Virus record (IMG/VR): IMGVR_UViG_3300027881_000007
Coordinates: 49,345 to 113,344 of that record
DNA length: 64,000 bases
Reading direction: 5' to 3' (one strand)
Source of the DNA: a virus
Shown here: positions 6,598 to 60,612 of the stretch, one piece after another
Numbering within the stretch: position 1 is the stretch's first letter
How the letters are laid out: each line of letters opens with the position of its first letter
Notes under the pieces: model-generated
Seen by the model: the letters and a program-made list of their open reading frames with translations, nothing else
Database searches by the model: none
What the model was told of the DNA's origin: nothing
Made by a program: the position numbers and the translations under genes

Positions 6598-7188
6598 CTA
6601 TAATACTAAGACAAGAGCAATCCCAACAGCAATTGCTCCTATAACTCCAAGGGTAATTTTATTTTCAATTCTTTGTTTCTCTAATTTATATTCCAACTGT
6701 AGAACTCTATTCTCGGCATTTACCCATAGAGTCCTGTAACGCTGAATGGTTATATCTTGGAGTTTGACAACATCTAACATTGCATTGTAAAGTTCAACTT
6801 CAACTTGTACTCTCTGAACCAATAGTTCAGAAATTTCAGCCATCATTTTGCCTTGCTCAATCTTGGCAACTATTTTGTTGTGCTCTTCAACAAGATATCC
6901 AACTACTTCAGCACCCTCTGGCACTTCCCCTTCCCAATCAAACTCTGTAGTCTGACCTTTTCTTATTAAGATAATGGGAACAGGTTCATTCATTTTATGA
7001 ACTTTATGAAGTATCTGCTTTAGTTTATCAACTCTGAGTTTGAAGGGGCGTTGGAATCTCTCTTCCATTTCAATGGGTTTAAATTCATCTGGAGGCTTGA
7101 AATCTTTTGGACCGCTGGCACAACTAGTCAGCAGACCAATTCCAAGCAGCACGTAGACGATCCAGGGACTCCTTAGCCGTTTGAACAT
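6598..7188 (-). CDS. Lipoprotein with C-terminal membrane anchor (unimolecular-spanin-like)
   Basis: 196 residues. The N-terminus has a basic start, a hydrophobic stretch and the lipobox LLTSC, so it should be lipidated. The middle (about 45-170) is charged and coiled-coil-like. The last about 20 residues (GVIGAIAVGIALVLVL) form a membrane segment. A lipid anchor at one end and an inner-membrane anchor at the other is the plan of unimolecular spanins, which disrupt the outer membrane. The start lies inside the upstream gene, as in nested Rz/Rz1 pairs. Confidence 0.6.
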   Translation of the reverse strand: MFKRLRSPWIVYVLLGIGLLTSCASGPKDFKPPDEFKPIEMEERFQRPFKLRVDKLKQILHKVHKMNEPVPIILIRKGQTTEFDWEGEVPEGAEVVGYLVEEHNKIVAKIEQGKMMAEISELLVQRVQVEVELYNAMLDVVKLQDITIQRYRTLWVNAENRVLQLEYKLEKQRIENKITLGVIGAIAVGIALVLVL

Positions 7189-28416: not shown

Positions 28417-28851
28417 ATGAAAAAGATTTTCATTTTGGTACTAAGTATTTTGTTTCTAAGTGTGGGGGTTGCAGTTGCTGACATAGACTGGACTTTTACA
28501 GGTCCGGATACAAGTGTGACACCTATTGATGGAGGGACGAGGACCACGACTACTTGGTCAGCTACAGGTATAGGAACATATAATTATTCACCGGATCCTA
28601 TCAATAAAGGTGAAGATCCTCCTCCAACAACGACGACACCAGTGGATATTCATGAAAGTGATTCCATTCCCAACAATCCCCCACCTACAACTATTAATAC
28701 GTCTTCATCATGGAACAATAGCTCTACATTTGGTCCGGTAGTGGGAGGCAGTGGCCCAGTAGGTGGTAGTAGCAGCTTCTCATTTAGCAATGGGGGTATC
28801 CTGTGGGATGGTAGTTTTCGGGTTCCGCCCACTGATACACCATTACCCTAG
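28417..28851 (+). CDS. Exported Thr/Pro-rich protein
   Basis: 144 residues. A clear signal peptide (MKKIFILVLSILFLSVGVAVA, cleavage after about 21) is followed by a low-complexity Thr/Pro/Ser/Gly region without Cys. GGAGGGAGG precedes the ATG. It is the first of seven exported products read rightwards to 33479. Extracellular or periplasmic location is expected; function unknown. Confidence 0.65.
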   Translation: MKKIFILVLSILFLSVGVAVADIDWTFTGPDTSVTPIDGGTRTTTTWSATGIGTYNYSPDPINKGEDPPPTTTTPVDIHESDSIPNNPPPTTINTSSSWNNSSTFGPVVGGSGPVGGSSSFSFSNGGILWDGSFRVPPTDTPLP

Positions 28852-28903
28852 GTCAATAAGTTGTTTCAAGTTTGTAAAATTTTCTAATGAAAGGAGGTAG
28901 CCT

Positions 28904-29548
28904 ATGAGGAAGATTTTACTTGTATTTTTCTTTGCTATATCAATTGTACTTTTGCTCTCCCCTATAGTTTTAGCACAAGATGCAGATGTAGGAGTAGCGC
29001 TACTTGAGATGCAATTGGTATCATCTGATCCAATCTTGATAACTCCAGGTGGAGATGAAATCAAACCGGATAAATACAATTCTCCATCCGACATTGACAC
29101 CCGAGTTGTCACTGACACAACTCCAACCTGTGAAGAGATCTTCACAATTATTGACATGAAGCAGAAGGTGGGCACACCATTGTCATGGTATGACCAGGCA
29201 ATGAGGGCAAGATGCATTGAGCAACCTATACCCGAAGATGATGATAAGCAGGATGATTACAGACCTGAACTCTCATTAGCAGTGCCTGATACCCTTTCCA
29301 AAACTGAGGGAAAACTCACAAGAATCGAAATCAGAGTAACCAAGGACTGTTGCCCATCACCTGATATTCCGGACTGTCCCACTTGTGGGGATAGACCATC
29401 TAAACATAGTCCGGATGTAACAAGGGCAACACAATCTGCTAACCGTCCACAATCAACACATTCAACACAATCAAGTCGGTCATATAATGTTGAGAGAAGC
29501 TATCAGAGTACACCCAACGCAGATCGACCGGCTAGACCAAAGAGATAG
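28904..29548 (+). CDS. Exported protein
   Basis: 214 residues with a signal peptide ending about VLAQDADV. CCPSPDIPDCPTCGD around residue 150 gives five Cys close together, and the tail is Ser/Gln/Arg-rich. The leader CTAATGAAAGGAGG is repeated from the gene at 28417. Function unknown. Confidence 0.62.
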   Translation: MRKILLVFFFAISIVLLLSPIVLAQDADVGVALLEMQLVSSDPILITPGGDEIKPDKYNSPSDIDTRVVTDTTPTCEEIFTIIDMKQKVGTPLSWYDQAMRARCIEQPIPEDDDKQDDYRPELSLAVPDTLSKTEGKLTRIEIRVTKDCCPSPDIPDCPTCGDRPSKHSPDVTRATQSANRPQSTHSTQSSRSYNVERSYQSTPNADRPARPKR

Positions 29549-29577
29549 CAAAGATGACCTTTGAAAGGAGGACGTCC

Positions 29578-30120
29578 ATGTGGCGTATGATGTATATATT
29601 AATCATTTTTGTTGCTGTCTCCTGTGCACCTAAGATGACCGTTTTGGTCGATGGGTACCCTATGAGTCAAGAGCAGGAATACTTATGGGTCCCAGATCCA
29701 GAGGTTGGTATAAGGATTCAGTACTATGTTGCTGGGTGGATAAAGAAAGATCTTGGAGGGGAAGAATTGGAACCGTATCCAATCTACTTCAAGATCAACG
29801 AGAAGGAATATCTTCCTGATAACGTTGAAGCTGTGACACTCAACGCTTGGATTAAGAATCCAAAGAACATTGAATATAAGGTTAACTCTTGGGTTGATGT
29901 GTCAAAACCCCATACTCGGCGTGTCAGTAAGATCGAACCTGTTTGCGGACTTACTAGCAAACTTAACAACTTCATTACCATTCATGGTCCTGTTGATTCT
30001 GGTTCAACTGTAAGATTAAGAGCAGTTCTCTATGATAACCAAGGGCTTCCTTTAGTTGCTATTGGTGATGCATATTACAAAGTAAAAAAACCAAAGAACG
30101 AAGAGCTCTATTCTCAATAA
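29578..30120 (+). CDS. Lipoprotein
   Basis: ATG 29578 has AAAGGAGG upstream. MWRMMYILIIFVAVSC is a short hydrophobic leader ending in a lipobox Cys. The mature part is beta-rich with aromatic residues (SQEQEYLWVPDPEVGIRIQY). An outer-membrane or periplasmic lipoprotein is expected; no family. Confidence 0.62.
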   Translation: MWRMMYILIIFVAVSCAPKMTVLVDGYPMSQEQEYLWVPDPEVGIRIQYYVAGWIKKDLGGEELEPYPIYFKINEKEYLPDNVEAVTLNAWIKNPKNIEYKVNSWVDVSKPHTRRVSKIEPVCGLTSKLNNFITIHGPVDSGSTVRLRAVLYDNQGLPLVAIGDAYYKVKKPKNEELYSQ

Positions 30121-30230
30121 TCGACAGTGATCAAATCTAAATTTGAAAGGGGGTGGTCAACAGTAGTGCGTAGGTAGAGGTAGTTACATTTTCAACTAAT
30201 TATATTCCCCTTGAAAGGAGGAATAAAGAA

Positions 30231-31265
30231 ATGAAGAAGACTATGGTATTATTGTCAATTCTTGCACTTCTATGCTGGGTCCCGAGTGCCTTCGCCATTG
30301 AGGGTGTAGGTGACTGGGATGGCGCAGCAGCGCAAGGCCAACTGATGGACCAGACCCAAGGTGGCCAGGCTGTCTTTGATGCTGATGGAAATACCATTGG
30401 CGGTCTCATGGGTCAAGAGTCTGAAATGATCCAAGAGATGAAGGCCGGTGGAATCGCCACCGCCAGTGTTGACCCCTGTGTTGACTGTCCAGATGACAAG
30501 ATAGCCATTGGCGGCGCCTACGCTCATTCCGAGATGGGTGTCTTCATGGAAGAAGGTCAACGTCAGGGTCAGGCTCAGATTGGTGTCTTCGGCCATATTT
30601 CCATCGACAAGCAAGAATGGTGGGAATTGAAGACCACCAAGAAGGGCGAGTTCAACTCAGATGGAACCAAAACTTTCAGTCTGAACAAGACAGAGACTAG
30701 TGATTATGACAAGACTTTTGACTTGACGAAGACTGAGAGTCATGACTCCGACTGGGACTTCCATGCTGACGTCGACGCAAACAAAACCTTCGACGTTGAA
30801 GCGGACGCCACTTTTGTCAATGAGAATGTAAACAAGACAGAAAATGAGTCCGAATCAGATGAAGGTCCTCCGGCAACAGAGTCATCCTCTGAAACCAACA
30901 CCAACACCAACACTCATTCCTTCGACGGTGCCTTGGGCGTTGATAAGCATTTTGATGCAGAAATCAATGCTGACGGTTCCCGTTCAGATGACTGGAGCAA
31001 GACTGTTGATGTTGACAAGACTGAGGACTTGACCGAGACAAAGACTGTAGAAGTCGTCAAAACTTGGGACAAGCACAATGACTTCGAGCTTGAGTGTACA
31101 GTCGTCGAGCACCACCAGAAAACTCTGACCTTTGATGGCAACGGTGTTGCTGGGGTCCAGTATGGTGGAGGCTATCAGTATGGAACGATCCAAGGGTATG
31201 CTAATGCAGGTGCCATGGGTGGAAGCCTTGACTACAACCCCATCGTCAGGCCTACTCTAGAATAA
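30231..31265 (+). CDS. Exported Asp/Thr/Lys repeat protein
   Basis: 344 residues. Signal peptide to about PSAFA, then VGDWDGAAAQGQLMDQTQGG, which has the same pattern as the next gene (VVADWDAESSQ...DQT). The middle (about 125-285) consists of short degenerate repeats of the NKTxTxDxD kind. The end is Gly/Tyr-rich. Base composition is more GC-rich than the structural genes. Repeat-rich exported proteins often build surface matrix or filaments, but this is inference. Confidence 0.65.
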   Translation: MKKTMVLLSILALLCWVPSAFAIEGVGDWDGAAAQGQLMDQTQGGQAVFDADGNTIGGLMGQESEMIQEMKAGGIATASVDPCVDCPDDKIAIGGAYAHSEMGVFMEEGQRQGQAQIGVFGHISIDKQEWWELKTTKKGEFNSDGTKTFSLNKTETSDYDKTFDLTKTESHDSDWDFHADVDANKTFDVEADATFVNENVNKTENESESDEGPPATESSSETNTNTNTHSFDGALGVDKHFDAEINADGSRSDDWSKTVDVDKTEDLTETKTVEVVKTWDKHNDFELECTVVEHHQKTLTFDGNGVAGVQYGGGYQYGTIQGYANAGAMGGSLDYNPIVRPTLE

Positions 31266-31313
31266 TCTCCAGACCTGAGAGAAACTAGTTTTTCTCTTAG
31301 AAGGAGGATGGCA

Positions 31314-31865
31314 ATGAAGAAGCTAGCAATCTTGCTTGGATTCATTGCCTTCGCTCTCTTTGTATCACCAGTCTACGCTGATACAAGCGTAGTTGCAGAC
31401 TGGGACGCAGAGTCCTCTCAAATAATGGTGTTTGATCAGACCATTGATCTGATCAACCGCTCAGAAGTTGATGGACTCGTAATTAATAAGGATGTGGATG
31501 ATCTGTTTAATAAGGAAACGCAAACTATTGCTGCTCCTGTTCAGGCTGGTTTTTTCGACCACAAAGAATTCCAAAGACTCTGGAAGGAGGGGGAGGTTGT
31601 AGACCTTTCTGAACTTATAGAGTCGAAAGGAATGGAGCAGGATACAGAATCGTTAGCTGTTCAGCAGATTAATACGAAAACTGAAGTTAGCGGAGCAGAC
31701 TGCAACAATGACAAATCTAGTGCTAGTACAGGAGCATCTGCTGCTCTTGTTCAAGGATATGACGCGTCACAGGCTGGATATGGGAGCGGATTTATTGGAT
31801 ACCAAGCAGGAACTAGTCAATCAGCAACTGCCAGTAGTGTCAACTCGACTACTACTAGTCAGTAA
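31314..31865 (+). CDS. Exported protein related to 30231 gene
   Basis: 183 residues. Signal peptide ends VYADTSVV. The first mature residues share the xDWDxxxxQxxxxDQT pattern with the previous product. The C-terminal third is Ser/Thr/Gly/Gln-rich (GASAALVQGYDASQAGYG), also like the end of the 30231 product. GGAGG lies six bases before ATG 31314. Confidence 0.62.
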   Translation: MKKLAILLGFIAFALFVSPVYADTSVVADWDAESSQIMVFDQTIDLINRSEVDGLVINKDVDDLFNKETQTIAAPVQAGFFDHKEFQRLWKEGEVVDLSELIESKGMEQDTESLAVQQINTKTEVSGADCNNDKSSASTGASAALVQGYDASQAGYGSGFIGYQAGTSQSATASSVNSTTTSQ

Positions 31866-31877
31866 GGAGGAACACGC

Positions 31878-32654
31878 ATGAAGAGAACGTTATTTGCGTT
31901 ACTCTTGGTTGTTGTTTTGATTTTTGCCTATACCCCTGTATGGTCTGGGGAGGCCAGCGAGAACTCCAATGAAGAGCAAGTGGAGGCTCTCGGTGAGGCC
32001 GGAGGCAGTGTGTTCAACGAGCAGGATACCTATGGAAGTAACTTCCAGATGGATCTATACATCGAAAAGTTCGAGATGGACCAGACGACAAACTGGAATC
32101 CTCAGTTGGATGCAAAAGTCGAAATAATCAAAACCATTAACATTAACAAAACCAAGACTGTCGATGTTGATATAGATGTCAATAAGACTGAAACGACCAA
32201 CGAAAACAAAACTGTGGACGTGGACGTGGACGTCAATAAAACCGAGACCCAAGGTGAAGGTGGAGAGGTTCTTCAGGCAACTAATGAAGTTCTGAACTCC
32301 TCCAACGGTAACGGTCATGGTAATGACATTGAGGTTGACATTGACTGGTACCCAATGTGTTGCACAGAAGTCGACATTATAATGGAGAATGTCCAGATTT
32401 CCATGATGTCCCAAACGGGTGGACAGTACTCTGATATGGGTGTCGATAATGCCTACGCAGTCGGAGAAGGTTCCTTCGAGATGCGTGGTCTGAATCAGAA
32501 CTTAGTGCAGCAGCAACTCAATGCTTCCAACGGAGCAGTTGGTGTACAGCAAATTGCGACCAGTTCCGCTACCGAGGTTCTTATCAATGGTGGTGGTGCT
32601 GTTGTAACTACTGATACCTACGAATCCTCAGGAGGCCTTGGCATCGTCGACTAA
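31878..32654 (+). CDS. Exported NKT/DVD repeat protein
   Basis: 258 residues. Signal peptide ends about VWSGEA. Residues about 75-125 have repeats of the DVDVNKTET type, as in the 30231 gene. The rest is rich in Gln/Asn/Gly/Ser, with MCCTEVDI as the only Cys pair. A paralogue or assembly partner of the 30231 product. Confidence 0.63.
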   Translation: MKRTLFALLLVVVLIFAYTPVWSGEASENSNEEQVEALGEAGGSVFNEQDTYGSNFQMDLYIEKFEMDQTTNWNPQLDAKVEIIKTININKTKTVDVDIDVNKTETTNENKTVDVDVDVNKTETQGEGGEVLQATNEVLNSSNGNGHGNDIEVDIDWYPMCCTEVDIIMENVQISMMSQTGGQYSDMGVDNAYAVGEGSFEMRGLNQNLVQQQLNASNGAVGVQQIATSSATEVLINGGGAVVTTDTYESSGGLGIVD

Positions 32655-32678
32655 TAGCAGGCAAAAAAGGAGCATAGG

Positions 32679-33479
32679 ATGAAACGTTTCCTATATATTC
32701 TAGTTGTCCTGTTCGCCTGCTTAACCATGGCGATCCCAGCTTATGCTGGAGATCTGGACGCTAGCGGGCAAGTCGGCGATCAGAACAATAACAACACGGA
32801 AAACAATGTTGCAAACGCCAATCAGAATGCGAATGCTCAGAACCAGTTCATGATTGGAGGTTCTCCGCAGTCAACCATCACAACGCATGGTTCGGAGATT
32901 CCCAGAAGCTTCCCAGTACCGGGTTCCGTTAACTATCCCGGTTATCCACAGTACTTCGGCCAGCCCACAGAGGACTACAACTTTCAGAAAGCAGGCGTTA
33001 TGCTGCTTTTCAAGAAGGTGTGGACTCGGGCTGAACTGGAGGCCATGGTAGGTGGCAGGGTTAGGCTCAACTCGAAATCTTTGGTTCCCCTGAAGAAGAA
33101 AGATGAAAGACTTCCTGAGGATACCATTGAGATCATAATCAAGCGGCCGCAGTACCCTGTACAGCAAGTAGGTCTCATTTATGTGTCAAGCAAAAATGTA
33201 GACTCCACTTCAATGGAAGTTTTATCCAAAGCTGCTCTATCTGCTCTGGACATGGGAGCCAAAACACTATTTCTGACCGCCGAAGGTTACTCACGAGTAA
33301 TCAAGGCATTTGGGTGGGGTATCGGTTTGAACTACACTCAGGCCTGGATTCAGAATTCCGGCAAAGGACAGAATAATGGTGGTGTTGGTTCCGGTGGTAC
33401 TGGAATCTCTGGTGGTGAAGCTGGATATAAGAGCAAACCCTGGATTCAAATGTTTGCTCTGAAACCCCTAGCGGAATAA
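32679..33479 (+). CDS. Exported Asn-rich protein with conserved C-domain
   Basis: 266 residues. Signal peptide ends IPAYAGDL, followed by an Asn-rich tract (about residues 33-58), a Pro/Tyr-rich linker, then a globular part (about 105-225) with MLLFKKVWTRAELEAMVGG and IEIIIKRPQYPVQQVGLIYV. The last part is Gly-rich. The operon ends here with a strong terminator. Function unknown. Confidence 0.65.
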   Translation: MKRFLYILVVLFACLTMAIPAYAGDLDASGQVGDQNNNNTENNVANANQNANAQNQFMIGGSPQSTITTHGSEIPRSFPVPGSVNYPGYPQYFGQPTEDYNFQKAGVMLLFKKVWTRAELEAMVGGRVRLNSKSLVPLKKKDERLPEDTIEIIIKRPQYPVQQVGLIYVSSKNVDSTSMEVLSKAALSALDMGAKTLFLTAEGYSRVIKAFGWGIGLNYTQAWIQNSGKGQNNGGVGSGGTGISGGEAGYKSKPWIQMFALKPLAE

Positions 33480-35933: not shown

Positions 35934-36078
35934 TGGTAGGGGGTACGGCATATGGATGCTGAATGGCTTGCTACAAGTCATTCAAGATGGTTGGGAGGAC
36001 GCTTTTCAAATCGGCGGGTCTTTCCTTCTTTCAACCGCTGATACCGTCTTGGGTTCGATTCCCGCCCCCTATCACCCA
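35934..36078 (+). ncRNA. tRNA-like RNA with large insertion, own terminator
   Basis: TGGTAGGGGG (35934-35943) pairs with CCCCCTATCA (36065-36074), followed by CCCA. Inside are a D-arm (CGGC-ATATGGAT-GCTG, 35946-35961), an anticodon-like arm TGGCT-TGCTACA-AGTCA (35964-35980), and a T arm with GGGTTCGATTCCC (36051-36063). Between the last two lies an extra long hairpin (GGTTG/CAACC and GGAGGAC/GTCTTTC). Anticodon would be CTA but position 33 is G, so identity is uncertain. It may be an odd tRNA, a tRNA with insertion, or another tRNA-mimic RNA. Confidence 0.55.
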
Positions 36079-36087
36079 GAGAAAAAG

Positions 36088-36117
36088 GTGCTCAGATTTG
36101 TCTGAGTACTTTTTTTT
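36088..36117 (+). terminator. Terminator of the tRNA-like RNA
   Basis: GTGCTCAGA - TTTG - TCTGAGTAC with eight T after it. Near-perfect nine-pair stem (one G-T). Confidence 0.88.
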
Positions 36118-36129
36118 GGTTCTCTAAAC

Positions 36130-36182: not shown

Positions 36183-38498
36183 AGTGAACCAATGTTTAGT
36201 AAAAACCCAAATGAAACAAGTGAACCAAAGGAGAGGAGGCACAAACCCGATTAACCTCAGTGAACCAATTAGTTGGAGAAACCCAGTTTCAAAAAGTGAA
36301 CCAATGCGGATAACAAAACCTAAAGGTGAGAAGTGAACCAATGTGATTAATAAACCCAATAGGAGGGTAGTGAACCAGATGCTTCAAGAATCTAATGGAA
36401 CCTAGTGAACCAATATCTAGAAGTCCACCAATCGTTGTAAAGTGAACCATTTGGAAAGAGTATCCCATCTCACCCCAGTGTACCACGTGGTATAAGCACA
36501 ACCAATCAGTCTAGTGAACCACAATGGTGGAGAAAACCACAACATAGTTAGTGAACCAAACCTATGATAAAAACCCGCCGGATCAAAGTGAACCACAAGC
36601 CTGCAGTAAACCTCCGGAATGGAGTGAACCAGCGAAGCTCAGCAATCCTATATTTCTGAGTGGACCACAATGGTACAGAAACCCAAGATGTAACAAGTGT
36701 AAAAAACCAATCGGTGCAGGGCACCTCAGAGTGTACCAATCCGAAAAATTATGTGAACCAATAGTCTAGAGAAGAACCAGTCTTATAGAGTGAACCAGAC
36801 AACGACACTAATTCATTGTTGAGGAGTGAACCAATAGGAAATAGATAACCTGTTGTTGAAAGTGAACCAAACGTGTCCAAGAAAACCTTCCTTTCTTAGT
36901 GAACCACCGTGATTTAGGACACCTTAGGATCCAAAGTGAACCAGTAAAAAGCTAGTCACCCAGAGGGGTGGAGTGAACCTACGTTGGTTAGAAATCCAGT
37001 ACATGACAGTGAACCAATTAGTGTAAGAACAACCAAGAACAAACAGTGAACCATCTCGCCAGAGTAATCCAATTGCGCGGAGTGAACCAATCTAAGGAAG
37101 AAACCCAGTTTTGAACAGTGAACCAATGCTATCCAGTAAACCTGTGCGGAGGAAGTGAACCTGTTGAAGGAAGCGACCCTTGATGACCAAGTGAACCGAG
37201 ACGAGATAGATAACCTACGATATTGAGTGAACCCACCAGGGCTAGAAACCCTAGAAAGCATAAGTGAACCATTCCCCTGCAGTACTCCATCCTTGCCGAG
37301 TGAACCGAACCGAAGTAGAACTCCCACAAAATGAAGTGAACCCGTTAGCCTCAGTAGACCAGAATCAATGAGTGAACCTAAGGAGAGTAGAAACCTTCAT
37401 GTCTAAGTGAACCAATTTGCGAGAGTAACCCATTCCCCTTCAGTGAACCAACCCGGGGTAGAAACCCGACAAAGTCAAAGTGAACCGTGAGGCTTGAGAT
37501 AACCACCTCCTGTAAGTGAACTATTAATGAAACAGAAAACCAATCAAGGTCAGTGAACCAATAGAAGAAATGAAAATCAGATAGCACAAGTGAACCGTAA
37601 AATGTCATAAACCCGAAATATTTGAGTGAACCAGTCCTATGAAGCAACCGAGCATCGCTAGTGAACCAAGTTACGTAGTTAACCAAATTGCCGAGTGTAC
37701 CATATTGGTCAACCAACCCAGACAGAATAAGTGAACCTGGTATGGATAAATAATCTAAGACGATAAGTGAACCAGGACATCGAAGAAAAACCACGAAAAC
37801 TCAGTGGACCAAGATCGGATAGAAATCCAATCGTGAGTAGTGAACCATTTTGTGCTAGAAAAACCCGGAAGTCAAAGTGAACCATCAAGGAGGTCTAAAT
37901 GAGCGAGATTGAATTAGGGCGAAAGGTAAGGGATACGGTTTCTGGATTTGAAGGAATTGCTGTTTGTCGTCACATTTATCTAAATGGTTGTGCAAGACTT
38001 AGCATTCAAGCACCCATTGATAAAGAGGGAAAATTGCCAGAGGTTGTCACCTTCGACGAACCGCAACTTGAAGTCATTGAAGAAGAGACAGGAATCGAAA
38101 AGTCAAAAGATGAAGGACCTGGCGGACCAATGCCCTATACGCCAACATCGCGTCATGAACCTAAAAGTAAATAAGTGAACCCCAGTATATCAGAAAACCA
38201 ATACAAGCGAGTGAACCAGGGGGTTTAGAAAACCGGCAAGAAAAAGTGAACCGTTATCTAATAGACACCCAAGTGTCGAAAGTGAACCATTAAAGAAACG
38301 CGTGTAACCAATTCTTCGGAGTTGAGTCCTTACCGGCACGCAGAGTGAACCAGGGTTTTTTAGTAATCCGTTAGAAATAAGTGAACCAGGGTTCTACAGT
38401 AATCCACCAGTAACGAGTGAACCATTAACCAGAAGAAATCAAAAATAAAAAGTGAACCAGAAAGAAGCTAAAAACCCCAAAATCGGAAAGTGAACCGA
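36183..38498 (+). repeat. TIGR-like dual-repeat array (57 units, about 36 nt)
   Basis: AGTGAACC (or a one-base variant) starts at 57 positions, 48 before the embedded gene and 9 after. Steps are 34-38 nt with few exceptions (22, 24/39, 40). The usual unit is AGTGAACCA, nine variable bases, AGAAACCCA or AGTAATCCA, nine variable bases; for example 37045-37116 has two exact 9-9-9-9 units. Variable parts differ in every unit. Alternating edge and loop repeats with two short spacers per 36 nt is the plan of TIGR arrays, not of CRISPR (28-37 nt repeat, about 30 nt spacer). A Tas-like gene follows at once. Confidence 0.85.
37899..38174 (+). CDS. Small gene embedded in the repeat array
   Basis: 91 residues from ATG 37899 with AAGGAGG upstream. 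LGRKVRDTVSGFEGIAVCRH, then YLNGCARLSIQAP and DEPQLEVIEEE give a small beta-barrel-like phage protein family seen in many phages without known role. The repeat array stops 15 bases before its ribosome site and restarts on the last base of its stop codon. It may be an inserted passenger, a TIGR-linked factor, or an ordinary phage gene caught in the array. Confidence 0.7.
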   Translation: MSEIELGRKVRDTVSGFEGIAVCRHIYLNGCARLSIQAPIDKEGKLPEVVTFDEPQLEVIEEETGIEKSKDEGPGGPMPYTPTSRHEPKSK

Positions 38499-38509: not shown

Positions 38510-39673
38510 ATGACCAAAGAAATTCTAGAACCAATCAGATCAATCGCTGATATCTTCAAAGGTAGAGGTTTTGATATACCCGTGGAACCTATACCTGAAT
38601 TGTGGAGTCCAAAGATTGAACTGAGAGCATTGATCAGAGGATACGACGACATTCAACGTGACAGAATCAGAATGGGAAATAGGATTCTTGGAAACTTATA
38701 TCGTCGTTTTGGTCTTAAACCAGGAGAGAAGAAAGATGGTCTTGGAGGCCTCCCAAGAGAGTTGATGGGTCTTATCTCCAGAGAGTACAAAAGAATTACT
38801 GATGGTGTCGTAATTAACATGAGAGAGATTCCAAACATTGTGAGAGATGCACATCCCGGTATAATCTCGGATGAAATCATGTTCGTGTTTGTTGACACCT
38901 ATTTAAAACTCGTTAAACAAGAGTACATAATCACCAAACAACTTGAATTATTTCTTGAAGAATTTCCAATTTGGACAGATCATCTGAAAGGACTTAGTGG
39001 AGTTGGTCCTACTATGGGTGGTATTATGGTGAGCGAACTTGATCCTCATAGAGCAGCACACGTTACTTCATTTTGGAGTTATGCTGGACTTGATGTGGTA
39101 TGGACAGTGGATACTATTGATGGTGAAGAAGTTGTCAGAGGAGAAGGTAGGAGCAAAAAGGCACACCACCTAGTTGATAGGGAATATGTGGATAAGGGTG
39201 GTCATACCAAAACAAAGAAGAGTATAACTTATTCCCCATACCTGAAAACAAAACTCCATGTCCTGGCAACAAGTTTTCTCCGTAAACAGGACGACAAATA
39301 TTCTCCCATCTTTTACGACTACAGAACTCGGATGCAGGGCAGGAGAGAATTCTTTGTTAGAGGTTTGAAAAGTAAACAAATTCTCTATAAGAAGGATCCT
39401 CATGATTCTGAAGGTCTGTTAACTCTTAGCTCCGCAAAGGTTGAACTCTGTAAAACATGGAGGGAGAAACAAAAGAAAACTCCAACTCTGGCGCAAACCA
39501 AGAAGTTTGTCACAAGTAACATCATGAGTGACAACCATATTAAGAACATGAGCATTCGCTATATGCTCAAAATATTCCTTCTTGATCTGTGGTCAAAGTG
39601 GAGGGAGTTAGAAGGATTGCCTGTATCGTCTCCGTATGAAGAAGACAAACTGGGCATTGTGCATTCTAAGTGA
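38510..39673 (+). CDS. Tas-like protein (IS110/Nop-like domain, no nuclease)
   Basis: 387 residues. The last repeat of the array overlaps its ribosome site (GAGGAGAAG). The N-terminal about 150 residues are helical and charged. LKGLSGVGPTMGGIMVSEL, then ARAAHVTSFWSYAGLD-like HVTSFWSYAGLDVVWTVD (about 165-205), is the helix-hairpin-helix and core of the IS110 Transposase_20 domain, which is related to Nop domains of box C/D RNPs and Tas proteins. No N-terminal DEDD (RuvC) domain and no HNH motif are seen, so it is closest to nuclease-free TasA. A free-standing IS110 remnant is the alternative. Confidence 0.72.
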   Translation: MTKEILEPIRSIADIFKGRGFDIPVEPIPELWSPKIELRALIRGYDDIQRDRIRMGNRILGNLYRRFGLKPGEKKDGLGGLPRELMGLISREYKRITDGVVINMREIPNIVRDAHPGIISDEIMFVFVDTYLKLVKQEYIITKQLELFLEEFPIWTDHLKGLSGVGPTMGGIMVSELDPHRAAHVTSFWSYAGLDVVWTVDTIDGEEVVRGEGRSKKAHHLVDREYVDKGGHTKTKKSITYSPYLKTKLHVLATSFLRKQDDKYSPIFYDYRTRMQGRREFFVRGLKSKQILYKKDPHDSEGLLTLSSAKVELCKTWREKQKKTPTLAQTKKFVTSNIMSDNHIKNMSIRYMLKIFLLDLWSKWRELEGLPVSSPYEEDKLGIVHSK

Positions 39674-44465: not shown

Positions 44466-45464
44466 TTATTTTTTCTTAAGCATCTCCTTTGTAACATTAA
44501 TATCTTTTACAGCCCAAGCATCCCAGCAGAAATCATTAATATAATTGTAAGGGAGATAACCATAACCTTTCTCTCCCCAATTTGTTCCCCAAGAATTCTT
44601 GAACTTTACTAGCTTTTTATTTGAATCATATCCAACAAAGCAAATAGCGTGACCTCCATAGAGAACTTTTGGATTTGCTGGATATGGAACATAACCATCA
44701 TCTCCGACATGGAATATCTCTTCATAGCAACCAATGCCGGCAAGACATGGACCGACGTTTTTCAACGACCATTCAATTTGTTCTATGTTCTCTAGTCTGT
44801 AATAGTGACCACACATTGTCCAAAGGGAAATCATTTTCGCCCATCTCTTTGGACTCCCTAACGTCCTGTCGCTATACGGCCATGCCTTCTCTGGCGGAAC
44901 TCCCATTTTCTGAAGGATTTTGAGTGCAAACCTAAAACTTGTGCCTTCTTGATTTGGCCAGGAATCAATTTCTTTCGACTTGTGATAAAGCCACTGTTCT
45001 GATAAGTCGTAGTGTTTTGCTTTTCGCCTGTACTTCTTCCCCATGAGCATTTCATCAATATGCTCCTTTTGCTCTTGCCATTCTTTCATTGAAACAACTG
45101 CAAAACCAACACAAGAACCTTTACGACCTTGATCTTTCACTGGAGACATTTCACCTGTATAATCTACAGATAAAGAATAAGTAAGTGGTAGTTCGGTAAT
45201 GGTAGAAGCCTTATAATCTCTCGTATCAAGAGGATCTGGTTTATAATTAAGTAAATATGGAAACGAACTAGTTCTCCCCCGCTCTCCAACTCTTTGAATT
45301 ACAATAGGAGTATCAATGACATAATCAGTAATTCCGGCTGCTCTTAATTGGTTAAATATCAAATCCCGATTATGGTCATTAAAGTCTATTATACATGGGG
45401 TTCTCACTTGACTGTGGTCCAAATTCAGGAGACTCCCCTTCTGGTTTATCCGTAGTTTCGGCAT
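44466..45464 (-). CDS. Papain-like cysteine protease (C1A family)
   Basis: 332 residues. MSPVKDQGRKGSCVGFAVVS has the nucleophile Cys (about 118), GGHAICFVGYD the His (about 274), and FKNSWGTNWGEKGYG the Asn (about 290), the full papain triad with an N-terminal about 85-residue extension. It stands between prohead protease and scaffold-like gene, and overlaps the latter. It may act in head maturation or on a host target after release; both are inference. Confidence 0.88.
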   Translation of the reverse strand: MPKLRINQKGSLLNLDHSQVRTPCIIDFNDHNRDLIFNQLRAAGITDYVIDTPIVIQRVGERGRTSSFPYLLNYKPDPLDTRDYKASTITELPLTYSLSVDYTGEMSPVKDQGRKGSCVGFAVVSMKEWQEQKEHIDEMLMGKKYRRKAKHYDLSEQWLYHKSKEIDSWPNQEGTSFRFALKILQKMGVPPEKAWPYSDRTLGSPKRWAKMISLWTMCGHYYRLENIEQIEWSLKNVGPCLAGIGCYEEIFHVGDDGYVPYPANPKVLYGGHAICFVGYDSNKKLVKFKNSWGTNWGEKGYGYLPYNYINDFCWDAWAVKDINVTKEMLKKK

Positions 45465-59940: not shown

Positions 59941-60612
59941 TTAGATAAAGTCAAACATCAAATGCATTCTCGTTGAAATGTTCACCTTGAACTCTTCAGC
60001 TGCATCAAGTACAAATGGTGTATTCTTCAGTAACTCGTCCCTGTTGCATCCTTGTGGCATTAAATAAATCCTATCATTAATGCCCATCTCAGCTACTTTT
60101 TGCACAAAGTTAAAATTCTCACGAGTTTCATAAAACACAACTTTTACATAAATATTTGGATACTTCACTGCCCACTTAACAAGATCAACTGCATCATCTA
60201 CATCATGAGGTAAAAACATCTTTGGTGATAAGACATAATTAGTTCTATCATTATTAGTTCTTTTATATAAATCTTTCAACCGATAACCATTTGTTTCAAC
60301 GTTTGCAAATGGATATTCCAACTTCCTCAACAACAGACTTGCATCAGTAATGTGGGCATCCCATGTGGGTTCTCCACCAGTTATCATCAATCCACACTTT
60401 TGATCATTGAGTATTTTTTGTATCTCCTTTAATGAATATTCGGCCTCCGGACTCACTCTCATTTTGACCAACGTGTCACACCAATTACATGCCTCTTTTC
60501 TTTCAACACGATCACAGTGTTTGAATCTAATGAGAAGCATTGACTTGCCTGTGTCCGGCCCTTCGCCCTGCCAAGTTTGAATACATTCGATTGCTTTAAT
60601 CTTCTTTTTCAT
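59941..60612 (-). CDS. queE: 7-carboxy-7-deazaguanine synthase
   Basis: About 223 residues, ATG 60612 after GAAAGGAG. TWQGEGPDTGKSMLLIRFKH starts the QueE radical-SAM domain. The cluster Cys are at HCDRVERKEACNWCDT, with C-x8-C-x2-C spacing, expanded relative to C-x3-C-x2-C. LMITGGEPTWD is the SAM-binding GGE loop. It converts carboxy-tetrahydropterin to the deazaguanine ring. No queC, queD or folE is seen in the window. Confidence 0.87.
   Translation of the reverse strand: MKKKIKAIECIQTWQGEGPDTGKSMLLIRFKHCDRVERKEACNWCDTLVKMRVSPEAEYSLKEIQKILNDQKCGLMITGGEPTWDAHITDASLLLRKLEYPFANVETNGYRLKDLYKRTNNDRTNYVLSPKMFLPHDVDDAVDLVKWAVKYPNIYVKVVFYETRENFNFVQKVAEMGINDRIYLMPQGCNRDELLKNTPFVLDAAEEFKVNISTRMHLMFDFI

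Follow-up and report, generated by a model that had tools for sequence, protein, structure and literature searches.

Positions 36183-38498 of the stretch of viral DNA analysed here (the window, which is the final 64 kb of the 113,344-bp IMG/VR record IMGVR_UViG_3300027881_000007 of a large, uncultivated virus of bacteria) are occupied by an array of two alternating short repeats that leads into a gene for a nuclease-less Nop-domain protein. In all likelihood this locus is a phage-borne dual-repeat TIGR-TasA system, whose guides have their targets outside the phage's own genome and of whose guides a subset is kept by selection. TIGR systems were described in 2025, with their natural targets, the origin of their spacers and the role of TasA all unsettled (PMC12045711), and the system in the window is an unusually large new example of that kind. 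The part likely to interest specialists is comparative: a second array away from tas, a guide library shared among phages, and a triplet pattern in the variability of the spacers.

The array and the adjoining Tas protein

The edge repeat, AGTGAACC, is found 49 times in exact form between 36183 and 38496, on the + strand without exception (2.3 occurrences would be expected in 64 kb), and ~57 times once the one-mismatch variants AGTGTACC, AGTGGACC, TGTGAACC and AGTGAACT are included. Fifty-one regular units can be parsed into edge, 9-11 nt, loop and 9-11 nt, with lengths that range from 34 to 40 nt, are mostly 36-37 nt and most commonly 36 nt (26 of the 49 strictly parsed units). The loop repeat has the consensus AG-A/T-AA-N-CC, with well-marked ends and a loose middle (base counts over the 51 units: A50, G40, A31/T13, A42, A42, C/A/T, C43, C47). 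The AG..CC ends are present in both the loop and the nearly invariant edge, and constitute matching box C/D-like motifs. A preliminary description of this DNA, made from the letters alone, had reported 57 repeats at steps of 34-38 nt in a single array with a plan of 9-nt repeat, 9-nt variable part, 9-nt repeat and 9-nt variable part, and had proposed aligning the units in order to derive both repeats. The array and its second repeat are real, the count stands when variants are admitted, and the alignment did yield a near-invariant edge and an AG..CC-ended loop. On the other hand, there are also steps of 40, 71, 22 and 63 nt, which are the sites of special elements, a 91-aa gene divides the array into two blocks (Table 1), the loop is loose, and the variable parts take 9-11 nt. 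A protein-coding repeat was rejected as an explanation for the array, since the frame breaks and the + strand has no long open reading frame apart from the 91-aa gene.

The next gene downstream of the array is tasA. The only Pfam match of its product is Transposase_20 (E=9e-4, just under the cut-off), whereas PHROG 4285 is matched at 1e-26 and the PDB sequences matched are 9mty (2e-10), which is the published TasR structure, and TasH 21kl (0.003). When a profile of seven Tas family sequences was compared with the PDB, TasH (1.9e-62), TasR (1.4e-31) and IS621 (8wt6, 7e-5) were retrieved. The fold points in the same direction: with an AlphaFold2 model built on the seven-sequence family alignment (pTM 0.67, mean pLDDT 69), ranks 1-11 of a Foldseek search against the PDB were all TasR or TasH chains with probability 1.00, and Nop5 3icx was matched weakly. 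Neither an N-terminal HNH nor a RuvC domain was found in the window protein (Pfam; alignment), which can be aligned over the Nop part with the Tas proteins of two other viral contigs (L048 and L059) and lacks the HNH block that these possess. The product is a TasA as defined in PMC12045711. An IS110 transposon was also considered and discarded, because there is no N-terminal DEDD/transposase domain (Pfam) and only the C-terminal, Transposase_20-like part is present.

Table 1. Features of the array locus in the window
Feature	Coordinates	Strand	Basis or remark
Conserved tRNA-like RNA (UAGGGGG..CCCCCUA ends, GGGTTCGATTCCC T-arm)	35937..36071	+	Alignment to sister phage L005
Intrinsic-terminator-like hairpin and T run	36088..36118	+	Fold z=-4.1 for 36040-36120; conserved in L005
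TIGR array, first block, ~45 edges	36183..37883	+	Exact or near-exact AGTGAACC; edge/spacer/loop/spacer parse
Irregular conserved element (AGTGTAAAAAACCA..GGTGCAGGGCACC..AGTGTACC)	36695..36751	+	Near-identical in L005, ~6816-6876
91-aa phage gene, PHROG 16275	37899..38174	+	Inside the array, splitting it into two blocks
TIGR array, second block, 9 edges	38174..38496	+	Exact or near-exact AGTGAACC
Hairpin element in an over-long 63-nt unit (38281-38343)	38300..38341	+	Alignment, folds
tasA, 387 aa, Nop/IS110-type RNA-binding protein	38510..39673	+	Profile, PHROG, PDB and fold matches

Among known systems, TIGR-TasA (Faure et al. 2025, PMC12045711; FpTIGR of Flavonifractor plautii) shares with the window the two alternating short repeats, the two ~9-nt spacers, the ~36-nt units, the adjoining nuclease-less Nop-domain Tas gene and the phage context. 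However, published arrays of this type typically have 5-15 units and that of the window ~60. Also unlike them, the window array is split by a gene, runs into the tas ribosome-binding site and has a loose loop repeat, its relatives possess guides common to several phages and a second array at a distance from tas, and its 387-aa Tas is extended at the N-terminus and has an internal insertion. TIGR-TasH (SpTasH of the Salicola phage CGphi29; PDB 21kl, 9w04) has the Nop fold in common with the window protein, but possesses an N-terminal HNH nuclease. TIGR-TasR (TaTasR, PDB 9mty) is alike in fold, guide plan and matching edge and loop motifs, although it has a RuvC domain and UG..CCA boxes instead of AG..CC(A). 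The IS110/IS621 bridge-RNA transposases and the box C/D snoRNPs have a related RNA-binding domain (8wt6; Nop5 3icx), from which the window system is set apart by the lack of a catalytic N-terminal domain and by a dual-guide array where the others have a single bridge RNA or dispersed snoRNAs. CRISPR arrays are likewise made of regular repeats and variable parts, but with a single ~25-36-nt repeat, ~30-nt spacers and cas genes. CRISPR-Cas was rejected, as the preliminary description had already done, given the dual 8-9-nt repeats, the 9-nt spacers and the absence of any Cas protein among the neighbours tested (Pfam, PHROG).

Related phages, a second array and shared guides

The phage record carries T4-type major capsid, portal and family B DNA polymerase genes, which makes it a T4-like phage. 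Its best-covered capsid matches among cultured phages reach only ~25% identity, and no close Tas was found in INPHARED phages. In IMG/VR, by contrast, three records (142, 277 and 224 kb) encode a Tas that is 83% identical, each with its own array. Another contig, L029, has a capsid protein 66% identical to that of the window phage and, adjoining its gene, an array of strictly regular 9+9+9+9 units (edge AGTGAACCA, 9, AGAAACCCA, 9). This array terminates in a truncated edge repeat and a terminator, unlike that of the window, which ends at the tas ribosome-binding site. A search of IMG/VR viral contigs for the DNA pattern edge-N10-loop-N10-edge, in which no protein was used, returned 19 stretches in 16 contigs. 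A Tas gene is present in 11 of the 16 (the three records with the 83% identical Tas and 8 of the other 13), and the remaining five are fragments or carriers of a second array type. Thus, the TIGR reading, which had been drawn from the repeat plan, is now backed both by the profile and fold matches of the adjoining Tas to TasR and TasH and by the co-occurrence, in other records, of Tas genes with arrays located by DNA pattern only. TasA-type and TasH-type proteins both accompany the same edge repeat: L048, L059 and L063 combine TasH-type (HNH) proteins with the AGTGAACC edge of the TasA-type phages, so that the class of repeat does not go hand in hand with the type of nuclease.

The second array type, without an adjoining tas, is present in four related phages. 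That of G002 has 27 edges and lies far from tas; L046 and L050 carry it in synteny, next to a conserved gene of 164 aa, and L047 has the corresponding array and the 164-aa gene on the same contig. The L046, L047 and L050 records, themselves fragments, yielded no tas gene, and G002 has its sole Tas match at the first array. A single TasA therefore probably works with both arrays, which in G002 amount to ~70 guides in total. Near the second array, at a distance of 1.5-2 kb, is an HNH endonuclease gene in L046 (1896-2483), L050 (463-1050) and L055 (9849-10385).

The guides (18 spacer positions each) of the window and of both G002 arrays were compared with those of L046, L047 and L050. In 24 pairs of guides, at least 14 of the 18 positions are the same, against no such pair with reversed spacers, and the best-match scores are bimodal, being either at background (7-12) or well above it. 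The preliminary statement that the variable parts differ in every unit is therefore valid within the window array, although some of its guides are encountered again in related phages. At four-fold-degenerate sites, the window and L005 are 58% (Tas) and 67% (capsid) identical, and the genes flanking the second array 42-74%. As guides remain identical at 15-18 of 18 positions despite such divergence, the shared guides look constrained. They recur across different array loci (the window array with array 2 of other phages), indicating that units move, whereas the remaining guides are unique, indicating high turnover. The shared guides make up 28 families. Altogether, the six homologous arrays hold ~190 distinct guides, many of them as diverged orthologs, and reveal that some guides persist while others turn over. 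They also provide a handle for target finding that single arrays lack, because the correct set of targets has to fit several variants of the same guide. That related viruses have guides in common suggests genuine targets for these guides, in DNA that does not belong to the virus itself.

Within the shared guides, 34 of the 60 variable sites are at spacer positions 3, 6 and 9 (binomial p=1.7e-4, a value that flatters a pattern spotted post hoc), with shares of 15/25 in spacer A, 19/35 in spacer B and 18/27 in exact 36-nt units. Changes that are synonymous in the spacer's own frame number 29 against 18.8 expected (p=2e-4), an excess that would fit coding targets read in register. Coding targets in a fixed register were nevertheless not adopted, given that the guides as a whole show hardly any depletion of in-frame stop codons; a free-phase test was also negative. 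As an alternative to codon wobble of the targets, the pattern may come from mismatch tolerance at every third base. A tentative way of bringing these observations together is a stock of 60-70 dual-spacer guides, common to these phages and slow to evolve, that is distributed over two arrays and served by one nuclease-less TasA, for the multiplex RNA-guided silencing of fixed foreign (probably host) genes, in which spacer positions 3, 6 and 9 would vary most through either codon wobble or the tolerance of TasA.

Possible mechanism and targets of the guides

Transcription of the array would run rightwards and probably include the 91-aa gene and tasA, as proposed from the position of both translation starts directly behind edge repeats (15 and 13 nt, respectively). 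By analogy with the family, cleavage inside the edge repeats would release ~36-nt tigRNAs. As in TasR and TasH, a TasA dimer would hold each tigRNA, anchored through the AG..CC ends of its edge and loop as box D/box C pairs. Spacers A and B would base-pair one with each strand of a single ~18-20-bp DNA site, with strong bending of the DNA. Having no cutting domain, TasA likely acts by occupying and bending its target; its binding, unwinding and bending of sites in the host or in competing elements would block transcription or replication. In the observed pattern, arrays exchange units and some guides persist from phage to phage, which would be due to selection, whereas the others turn over. 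Cutting at the edges would, moreover, leave the mRNAs of the 91-aa gene and of tas with very short leaders, making a feedback possible.

Following our reading of the published geometry (which includes cut sites and 3' overhangs; PMC12045711), a target was modelled as spacer A plus the reverse complement of spacer B with a gap of 0-2, and counts were controlled with mispaired A-B guides and with reversed spacers. A nuclease-less TasA could be a regulator, and the array lies within the leader of the tas operon, which would suit guides directed at the genome of the phage itself as a means of gene control. This self-regulation is very unlikely and largely refuted: the guides have no match at 0-1 mismatch in their own 113 kb, nor do those of the 277-kb relative in its genome. 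Over both genomes and three sibling contigs, the sole match with at most one mismatch is a 1-mismatch match of an A/T-rich guide. Beyond one mismatch, there is no consistent excess over the mispaired controls in these sequences (counts at 2-3 mismatches are close to them, and a 3-mismatch excess for A-rich arrays is probably due to composition), and orthologous single-spacer sites number 31 against 28 with reversed spacers. No excess was seen in rRNA (E. coli rrnB) either, and the peptides encoded by guide targets in the own proteomes and fetched loci include none of note.

Which foreign DNA would then be aimed at? Host genes, for takeover or counter-defence (e.g., the silencing of cas genes) and not competing mobile elements, are a possible answer that stops short of being probable. 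That guides are conserved implies that their targets are too, in three phages the spacers have a higher GC content than the genome, and one conserved guide had zero viral matches. Another, identical in four phages, exactly matches the SSQxLK-RTWRTS motif of the type I-E cas7 of the sulfate reducer Desulfobacteraceae Eth-SRB2. Yet this is one of 11 matches that the GTDB scan returned in unrelated taxa, where ~7.5 are expected by chance, 30 further cas7e loci show no excess of guide matches, and a second conserved guide has none in 395 genomes of the phylum of Eth-SRB2, so that the cas7 lead is probably chance. Rival phages or plasmids, as suggested for TIGR in PMC12045711, are a conceivable answer as well, which we hold with similar reserve. 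Guide turnover fits an arms race, and the HNH endonuclease near the second array could be a nuclease partner recruited in trans, although HNH genes are common in phages. The guides of seven arrays, however, match no sibling phage at up to one mismatch, save for the A/T-rich match mentioned above. Nor did three viral scans, which covered conserved guides and a gap of 1-3 nt, reveal a coherent target set, giving nothing or chance-like matches in unrelated genes; at gap 3, one gene common to close relatives was matched.

A different explanation, in which the array is neutral or in decay and does not function as a source of guides, would account for the loose loops, the 34-40-nt units and the irregular elements. 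It is nonetheless improbable in view of the nearly invariant edges and of shared guides that are conserved while synonymous sites diverge strongly, and whose variation follows a positional pattern. Several points do weigh against a TIGR-TasA system with selected guides and foreign targets. Compared with published arrays, the loops are looser and the units differ more in length, so that some of them may be non-functional; part of the guide sharing could come from recent unit exchange, with no need for selection; and the 113-kb record is a fragment, beyond which self-targets are possible. Furthermore, the search of paired spacers against phages and hosts that the preliminary description had called for turned up no natural target in the collections scanned, the scans with three conserved guides being at chance level.

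Other elements of the locus and its surroundings

The 91-aa gene has an edge repeat and AGGAGG directly 5' of its ATG, its stop codon abuts the next edge, and it was not seen in the relative's array. Upstream of the array, the terminator-like hairpin would separate it from upstream transcription. A conserved tRNA-like RNA lies shortly upstream of both array types, with a T-arm similar to that of the window present upstream of the second array of G002 (reverse complement, ~200328) and in L046 (~3800); ARAGORN called no tRNA in the window at 35937-36071. As for the elements inside the array, the predicted fold of the irregular conserved element is no better than that of shuffled sequences. The two-part hairpin of the over-long unit has a similar counterpart in L005 (7886-7943), in which the inner stem bases differ from those of the window yet still pair, with shuffle z-scores of just -0.7 and -1.9.

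Elsewhere in the window, a tandem run of secreted or lipoprotein-like genes (28417-33479), several of them N-, T-, S- and D-rich, is unusual for a T4-like phage, and a peptidase-family gene (44466-45464; PHROG 16701, papain-like by eye) is found within the T4-type head gene cluster. Finally, a 64-bp element is 89% identical between G000 (1839-1899) and G002 (60107-60170, reverse complement), at non-orthologous places.
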